Below are positions 7,176 to 61,599 of a stretch of 64,000 nt of DNA, piece after piece. This stretch comes from Acidimicrobiaceae bacterium (GTDB lineage: Bacteria > Actinomycetota > Acidimicrobiia > Acidimicrobiales > RAAP-2). The stretch spans positions 56,875 to 120,874 of the forward strand of contig PLRX01000128.1 in assembly GCA_003164095.1 (NCBI GenBank). The letters run 5' to 3'. The notes below the pieces were generated by a model. That model had not been told where the DNA came from. It saw only the letters and a program-made list of their open reading frames with translations, and searched no databases. Positions within the stretch are counted from its first letter, which is position 1. The number at the start of each line of letters is the position of its first letter. The translations under genes and the position numbers were made by a program.

Positions 7176-7234
7176 CCTGAACAACGCCACTGCATGAAGG
7201 TCGGTCCTCGGAACGCCTCCGCAGGGCACCAGCG

Positions 7235-7308
7235 TGGGGACGGAGGGAGTCGAACCCTCACTCGGGGCGGTTTAAGCGCCCTGCCTCTGCCAATTGGGCT
7301 ACGTCCCC
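7235..7308 (-). tRNA. tRNA with anticodon TAA (tRNA-Leu-like, but short variable loop)
   Basis: Reverse complement folds as GGGGACG/TA/GCC-CAATTGGCAGA-GGC/A/GGGCG-CTTAAAC-CGCCC/CGAGT/GAGGG-TTCGACT-CCCTC/CGTCCCC/A: complete cloverleaf with 5-nt variable region. Confidence 0.85.
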
Positions 7309-7408
7309 CTGCCGGACGACTGTAGGACCACGCCGCCCGGACGCCGCGCACCGGAGCCCGGGCACCGGTCGCCCACGCAGGGCCCAGACATCTCGCCCGA
7401 TCACGAGC

Positions 7409-9073
7409 TCACCCGACCCGGTGCCCCGGTAACGGTCCGACCACGGCATCCACCGCCGCGAGTTCGACACCCCGCGGATCGTCGACCCGGTGGACGATCC
7501 CCGTCGCACCGGGCCACGGGCCGAGCACTGTCGTCGGACGGACCTCGGGGTCCCACGTCTCCCATGTCCCGCCGGCAGCGCCGGCAGCGCCGGCAGCGCC
7601 GGCGCCGGGAAGTCCGCACTCGGGCACGCCGGACCGGGCGAAACTCGCCCACGCACGACCCATCTGCGCCGACAGGGTGAACGCGTCGTCGCTGCCGCCG
7701 GAGAAGGCCTGGACCACCGGGTTCTTGAGGGTACCGAAGACGAATGGGATCTCGAGGGCGTGGCAGGACCCCAGCACGCCCTCGAAGGCCGGTGACTCCC
7801 AAGTGAACAGATACGCGAACGTACCGATCCCGGGGTCGGCCGCCGCAGCATGGGCACTGGCGAACCGGGCGGTCCCCACCCGGAACACGACCTCGGTGGA
7901 GATGGCCGACCACAGGTCCCGGGGCGCCGTCGACTCACCACGCTCCGCCCGCGCCGCCAGCACGGCGGACACCGCCCGGTGGGCAGCCTCGTCGTCCGGG
8001 GTCACACGGCGCACCCAGTGCCGCAGGCCGTCCATCGTGAGGCTCATCAGCTTGGGACTGCCGAGGACGAAGAAGGCGGACTCGTCCCGGTTCGTCCCGA
8101 TCAGCAGGGGGATCGACGAGGCGGACCCCCCGGCCACCGCCACCTCGGGCGGCAACGGCAGCAGACCGCCGTCGACGACCGGTGTCATCAGGAGCCCGGC
8201 ATCGGACCCCCCGTCGCCATCGGTGTAGTCCGCGCCCGCGGCAACCAGTCGCTCGGCGGGCACGGAGACAAGGGCCTCGCGGGTGCACGCCACCCCCAGG
8301 TGGTCGGCCAGCCGTTCGGCACGGTCCGCCGCCGCCTCCAGCGAGCACGTGAACGGCGGCCCACTCTCGACGACCGCACGGTGGAAGAGTCCGGCCGCGA
8401 CCGGCACGGCCAGGAGCGCGGACACACTCATACCTCCGGCGGACTCGCCGAACACGGTGACGTTGCCAGGGTCGCCCCCGAACCCCTCGATGTGGTCGCG
8501 CACCCACGTGAGGGCCGCCACCTGGTCGGCCAGTCCCCAGTTGCCCGAGCCTGCCCACTCCCGGCCGTCGAGCCAGGGCTGGCCCGGGTCGTCGAGCACC
8601 GGATGGGCCAGGAAGCCCAGCAGTCCGAGGCGGTAGTTGATGGTGACGACGACCACGTCCTCGGACCGGGCGAGTTCGCCACCCCGGTAGAGGCCGGACG
8701 ACCCCGTCCCGGTCATGAACGATCCGCCGTGGATCCACACCATGACCGGGCGGTGGCCGCTGTCGAGCCCGGGCGTCCACACGTTCAGATTGAGACAGTC
8801 CTCCGAGGACTCTGGCGGCTCACCCCCACCACTGAGGGCCTGGTCCATGAATCCCATGGCCTGCGGAGCCACCGGACCGAACCGGTCGCACTCGCGGACG
8901 CCCGCCCAGGGCTCCGGCGGTGCCGGAGGGCGCCAACGGCGCTCCCCCGCAGGGGATGCGGCGTACGGGATCCCGGAAAATGACCAGGCACCCCCACGCT
9001 CCACCCCGCGCACACGGCCGCCCCGCACCTCCACCACTCCGTCCACGACGACGACCTCCAGTTCCGGGTGCAA
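7409..9073 (-). CDS. Carboxylesterase/lipase, type B family
   Basis: 554 aa; GIPYAASP, VMVWIHGGSFMTGTG oxyanion hole, GESAGGMS nucleophile elbow. Confidence 0.93.
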   Translation of the reverse strand: MHPELEVVVVDGVVEVRGGRVRGVERGGAWSFSGIPYAASPAGERRWRPPAPPEPWAGVRECDRFGPVAPQAMGFMDQALSGGGEPPESSEDCLNLNVWTPGLDSGHRPVMVWIHGGSFMTGTGSSGLYRGGELARSEDVVVVTINYRLGLLGFLAHPVLDDPGQPWLDGREWAGSGNWGLADQVAALTWVRDHIEGFGGDPGNVTVFGESAGGMSVSALLAVPVAAGLFHRAVVESGPPFTCSLEAAADRAERLADHLGVACTREALVSVPAERLVAAGADYTDGDGGSDAGLLMTPVVDGGLLPLPPEVAVAGGSASSIPLLIGTNRDESAFFVLGSPKLMSLTMDGLRHWVRRVTPDDEAAHRAVSAVLAARAERGESTAPRDLWSAISTEVVFRVGTARFASAHAAAADPGIGTFAYLFTWESPAFEGVLGSCHALEIPFVFGTLKNPVVQAFSGGSDDAFTLSAQMGRAWASFARSGVPECGLPGAGAAGAAGAAGGTWETWDPEVRPTTVLGPWPGATGIVHRVDDPRGVELAAVDAVVGPLPGHRVG

Positions 9074-61521: not shown

Positions 61522-61526
61522 GAGGG

Positions 61527-61599
61527 CTCCGAGGGGAGGGCTCGAACCTCCAACATCCGGCTCCAAAGGCCGGCGTTCTGCCAATTGAACTACCTCGGA
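61527..61599 (-). tRNA. tRNA-Gln (anticodon TTG)
   Basis: TCCGAGG-TA-GTTC-AATTGGCA-GAAC-G-CCGGC-CTTTGGA-GCCGG-ATGTT-GGAGG-TTCGAGC-CCTCC-CCTCGGA-G. Confidence 0.95.

Follow-up and report, generated by a model that had tools for sequence, protein, structure and literature searches.

A leucine-type tRNA(UAA) without the class II variable arm as the apparent sole UUA decoder in an Acidimicrobiales lineage

A stretch of 64,000 nucleotides from an Acidimicrobiaceae bacterium (contig PLRX01000128.1; this whole 64-kb stretch is called the window below) carries a tRNA-Leu(UAA) gene of class I architecture. The tRNA has a complete cloverleaf with leucine identity features, is conserved in relatives, never shares a genome with its class II counterpart among the genomes searched and occurs in genomes with a single leucyl-tRNA synthetase (LeuRS); two TTA codons could be compared with homologous proteins, and both align with leucine. 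We consider it very probable that this is a functional housekeeping tRNA, charged by the ordinary LeuRS, which has replaced the class II form as the only decoder of UUA. Its expression, charging and decoding are what we infer from these comparisons.

Structure of the tRNA and its locus

Read on the minus strand, positions 7308-7235 give GGGGACGTAGCCCAATTGGCAGAGGCAGGGCGCTTAAACCGCCCCGAGTGAGGGTTCGACTCCCTCCGTCCCCA. ARAGORN reported tRNA-Leu(taa) at 7234-7308 on the same strand, the Rfam model RF00005 matched 7308-7235 with 60.1 bits (E 1.7e-10), and folding of this stretch recovered the cloverleaf (z -2.14). The segments are GGGGACG-TA-GCC-CAATTGGCAGA-GGC-A-GGGCG-CTTAAAC-CGCCC-CGAGT-GAGGG-TTCGACT-CCCTC-CGTCCCC-A, which on direct reading comprise an acceptor stem of 7 bp, a D stem of 3 bp with an 11-nt D loop, and anticodon and T stems of 5 bp each; the gene does not encode the CCA end. 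The 7/5 acceptor/T branch and a variable region within the 4-5 nt of class I tRNAs place the molecule in that class, the five nucleotides CGAGT falling short of the paired arm of at least 10 nt that defines class II. The anticodon UAA includes the A35 expected of leucine, and the discriminator is the A73 of bacterial tRNA-Leu. Leucine identity in E. coli is attributed in PMC9976931 to A73, the A15-U48 Levitt pair, G18G19 and A20a, and all of these are present in the window tRNA, whose D-arm layout moreover equals that of the class II leucine tRNAs of the same genome (Table 1). The initial annotation, made from the sequence alone, had given the same stem lengths, D loop, 5-nt variable region and discriminator A, all of them rightly; the TACAGT element that it had placed at 7319-7324 is also there, on the minus strand and outside the tRNA proper (7235-7308). 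Besides the tRNA-Leu, the window encodes just one tRNA, a tRNA-Gln (61525-61599).

Table 1. Coordinates of the tRNA gene, its elements and its neighbour in the window
Feature	Position	Strand	Basis
Class I tRNA-Leu(UAA) gene, 74 nt, G1 to A73	7235..7308	-	ARAGORN, RF00005, relatives
Anticodon UAA in loop CTTAAAC	7272..7274	-	sequence; invariant in BLAST-found relatives
Variable region CGAGT, 5 nt, last base U48; a paired arm stands here in class II tRNA-Leu	7260..7264	-	sequence
Discriminator A73	7235..7235	-	141/141 unique relatives
Leucine-type D arm GCC-CAATTGGCAGA-GGC, with A14, A15, G18G19 and A20a	7283..7299	-	sequence
TACAGT, -10-like hexamer whose first base lies 16 nt upstream of the tRNA	7319..7324	-	sequence
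Carboxylesterase family gene (PF00135), upstream neighbour in the same orientation	7409..9073	-	Pfam E 8.8e-107

Upstream of the class I genes, TAnnnT at -26 to -7 was found in 13 of 30 relatives against 2.8 expected, an enrichment that may hint at a promoter of their own. Homologues of the carboxylesterase (36-49% identity) accompany the tRNA gene in this position at a further 13 class I loci, 14 in total, and at 0 of 51 class II UAA loci; this shared synteny indicates that in those species the class I gene has long been in place and was inherited vertically. The gene is unlikely to be a class II gene whose arm was deleted in place. The carboxylesterase itself is not thought to be part of the function of the tRNA; it happens to contain, at codon 548 of 554, one of the 12 TTA codons counted in 466 kb of the genome, probably by coincidence.

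Distribution in Actinomycetota and viruses

Across 148 genomes of the order, BLAST retrieved class I UAA tRNAs from about 33, most of them 82-95% identical, and all those recovered had anticodon TAA and a short variable region; the total for the order reached 36 of 148 genomes. The TAA anticodon, A14, A15, U48 and A73 are invariant in the near-identical relatives from the order, and because the search patterns partly impose C13, A14 and A15, we do not count the conservation of these three bases as independent evidence. A pattern for class I leucine tRNAs matched in 50/148 genomes (its reversed control gave no matches), and among its matches are relatives with UAG, CAA and CAG anticodons, so that short-armed leucine tRNAs form a family. 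Class I tRNA-Leu(CAA) is present in order genomes G006, G064, G134 and G136, some of which also have a class I Leu(UAG).

The class II tRNA-Leu(UAA) pattern matched in 64 of the 148 genomes, rising to 87 after looser searches, and none of the 148 contained both UAA classes. At the level of the phylum (Actinomycetota), 67 genomes had the class I and 145 the class II form, again without a single case of co-occurrence. Fisher p values for this exclusion (2.5e-18 for the order, 1.9e-15 for the phylum) ignore phylogeny and are not true probabilities, since the genomes are related. About 25 order genomes showed neither form by the patterns used. A search blind to class, which asked for UAA and a T arm alone, gave a single UAA tRNA in 25 of 28 order genomes and likewise in each of the eight genomes behind the named records, including Mycobacterium sp. 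ENV421. In the taxonomic class of a 6-Mb isolate, UAA with class I spacing was matched in 77/148 genomes, although a few of the listed matches behind this count show no tRNA motif and seem to be spurious. One order genome (G004) carries two class II tRNA-Leu(UAA) genes (C21:4551 and C64:2767).

For comparison we assembled 141 unique class I UAA sequences and counted stem pairs segment by segment. A73, which no search pattern fixes, is present in 141/141, the variable region is 5-6 nt long throughout, and U48 occurs in all 34 sequences of the order set. All pairs of the acceptor and anticodon stems, and most of those in the T stem, vary among G-C, C-G, A-T and T-A, a single position showing as many as six kinds of pair, and yet remain paired in 133-141 of the 141 sequences. 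With dozens of genomes conserving the gene and its stems covarying, it is beyond chance, and the same observations led us to reject a pseudogene or one-off. The initial annotation had held that a clear identity for another amino acid, or absence from all relatives, would count against its reading; the identity features found are those of leucine, and the gene is kept by relatives.

The genome of origin (3.72 Mb) gave 43 RF00005 matches, among which the Leu CAA, TAG and GAG tRNAs are ordinary class II molecules and the Ser and Tyr tRNAs are long-armed as usual. A class II tRNA-Leu(UAA), for which the initial annotation had proposed a search, is not among the 43, nor is any second UAA anticodon of either class; as the assembly consists of 163 contigs and is 95.5% complete, a further UAA tRNA could be missing from it. 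Anticodon CAA cannot read UUA, which leaves the window tRNA as the apparent sole UUA decoder. Eight further genomes of the same family show the same pattern.

The class I UAA pattern also matched at least 120 viral stretches in IMG/VR. The IMG/VR loci that were read hold 81 short UAA tRNAs, often in arrays and with a median GC of 0.41, and annotated actinophages have close relatives with anticodon tag, labelled merely tRNA-Leu in public records. One phage-like contig binned as Deinococcales (L162, 2464-6721) carries 23 tRNAs, its Leu TAA, CAA, TAG and GAG tRNAs all being short. Small odd arrays (Met/Ala/Cys/Leu-CAG/Pro) of phage- or mobile-like appearance at L070, L079 and L080 (G115, G146) include a class I tRNA-Leu(CAG). 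It is possible, though we regard it as doubtful, that phages and actinomycetotal chromosomes share one mobile tRNA lineage that has repeatedly displaced class II tRNA-Leu(UAA), and in some lineages likewise the UAG, CAA and CAG forms. Under such a scheme, loss of the arm would perhaps free the tRNA from enzymes that read it (SerRS, tRNA-targeting toxins, defence nucleases), with LeuRS still accepting it.

Charging, codon use and competing explanations

Searches with the bacterial LeuRS model (TIGR00396) returned one match above the curated cut-off in each of 20 genomes, whichever class of UAA tRNA they carry, split pieces in one frame being counted as one. Other TIGR00396 matches were weak, as expected from related synthetases, and a dedicated second LeuRS was found in none of the 20. 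We propose that this single bacterial LeuRS would charge the tRNA through A73, A15-U48, the G18G19/A20a D-loop layout and the elbow formed by the D and T loops, the variable arm being unnecessary for charging of the class I form. According to PMC9976931, neither the sequence nor the folding of the long arm matters in E. coli tRNA-Leu, and an armless minimal tRNA-Leu is active. The leucine-charged class I tRNA would then decode the rare UUA codons, taking the place of the absent class II tRNA-Leu(UAA) in the lineage.

Codon use was surveyed in 466 kb of the genome (323 putative genes, GC 0.704), where TTA makes up 12 of 120,817 codons, or 0.10 per thousand, as rare as the initial annotation had supposed; scaled up, the whole genome would contain about 96. 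A simple position-independence model predicts 190 TTA codons in the surveyed part, while the other leucine codons (TTG x CTA / CTG) predict 12.2, so that TTA is avoided no more than the general leucine codon bias entails. Among the TTA genes that could be recognised are those of a LysR regulator, a GAF histidine kinase, glycosyltransferases, a cupin and the carboxylesterase; several of the twelve TTA-bearing ORFs may be no real genes. TTA codon 7 of the LysR gene aligns with Leu in solved homologues, and so does codon 28 of a glycosyltransferase, there in a weak stretch of the alignment.

The extreme rarity of UUA, together with the auxiliary nature of the recognisable TTA genes (LysR, GAF histidine kinase, glycosyltransferases, carboxylesterase), would suit a regulatory tRNA like Streptomyces bldA, whose level limits the translation of a few UUA genes in a condition-dependent switch. 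We nevertheless judge such a role unlikely: TTA is as frequent as the other leucine codons predict, the window tRNA is the only UUA decoder found, its 5-nt variable region departs from the class II structure of bldA-type tRNAs, and the developmental role of bldA is confined to Streptomycineae according to a review (PMC4255298). We found no evidence of a regulatory role for the window tRNA, and of the initial suggestion that the tRNA might be regulatory, atypical or otherwise specialised, only the second term has held: it is a leucine-type tRNA, with leucine identity features, that lacks the class II arm, whereas for an apparent sole UUA decoder, with TTA codons no rarer than predicted, a regulatory or specialised role is not supported.

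A tRNA whose shape differs from that of the other leucine tRNAs of its genome might be charged with a different amino acid, UUA being recoded or mistranslated, and phenylalanine would come nearest (A35, A36, A73). However, PheRS looks for G34, which the window tRNA lacks; the leucine D-arm layout, A15-U48 and A73 are kept in relatives, both TTA codons tested align with Leu, and very different genomes have this type of tRNA as their sole UAA tRNA, all of which makes charging with anything but leucine very improbable. Marginally less credible still is a decaying or mobile-element tRNA that the cell does not use. The viral contigs and some actinophages that carry the same type would accord with it, but the same neighbouring gene at the 14 loci of diverged species, compensatory changes that keep the stems and the lack of an alternative UAA tRNA among the RF00005 matches of the genome speak against it. 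That the short arm is an error of assembly or prediction is scarcely conceivable and was rejected: the window does come from a fragmented assembly, but the same structure recurs in many independent assemblies, in single-contig genomes, in annotated phage records and in a Mycobacterium isolate. A housekeeping class I tRNA-Leu(UAA) thus remains the preferred explanation.

Significance and comparison with known systems

The long variable arm is commonly held to be a defining trait of bacterial tRNA-Leu, and leucine tRNAs now appear less uniform than textbooks state. A natural armless sole UUA decoder, apparently kept in many lineages, agrees with the arm-independence of LeuRS in vitro. It bears on isotype calling and on class-based tRNA annotation, and offers a natural system for studying what use synthetases, modification enzymes and tRNA-cutting toxins make of the arm, and how one tRNA gene comes to be superseded by another that belongs to a different class. 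In the open-licence literature we found no paper on a bacterial tRNA-Leu(UAA) of class I, although an earlier report elsewhere is possible; the searches brought up only a passing remark on a mycobacterial tRNA-Leu(TAG), considered below, and the passages retrieved from reviews on non-canonical tRNAs and on leucine identity describe no such UAA form.

With class II tRNA-Leu(UAA), including Streptomyces bldA, the class I form shares the UAA anticodon, the 3-bp D stem, the 11-nt Leu-type D loop, A14, A15, G18G19, A20a and A73, as well as the decoding of UUA that we ascribe to it. It differs in its 5-nt variable region and in A9 and C12-G23/C13 of the D arm; moreover, no genome was found to contain both it and the class II gene, and it shows no sign of a developmental switch. 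Allo-tRNAs are likewise unusual bacterial tRNAs, a few of them with leucine anticodons, but their cloverleafs are 9/3 and 8/4 (PMC7609411), whereas the window tRNA has a 7-bp acceptor stem, a 5-bp T stem and a short variable arm. Animal mitochondrial tRNA-Leu(UUR) is a UUR leucine tRNA without a long arm, recognised via A73 and A14 (PMC9976931); both it and its synthetase are organellar, while the window tRNA has a full bacterial cloverleaf with A15-U48. The short phage tRNA-Leu genes (Mycobacterium phage Rey, Streptomyces phage JXY1, IMG/VR) have in common with it the TAGCCCAA..GG(N)AGAGGC D arm, the short variable region and A73, but they lie in phage tRNA arrays, and those of Rey and JXY1 read tag, those of IMG/VR taa. 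Another short-variable-loop leucine tRNA of Actinomycetota is the cluster-borne tRNA-Leu(TAG) of Mycobacterium mucogenicum and M. phocaicum, whose normal isoacceptor has a long loop (PMC6582537); there the short form is an extra copy beside a normal class II tRNA, whereas the window form is chromosomal and the sole UAA tRNA.
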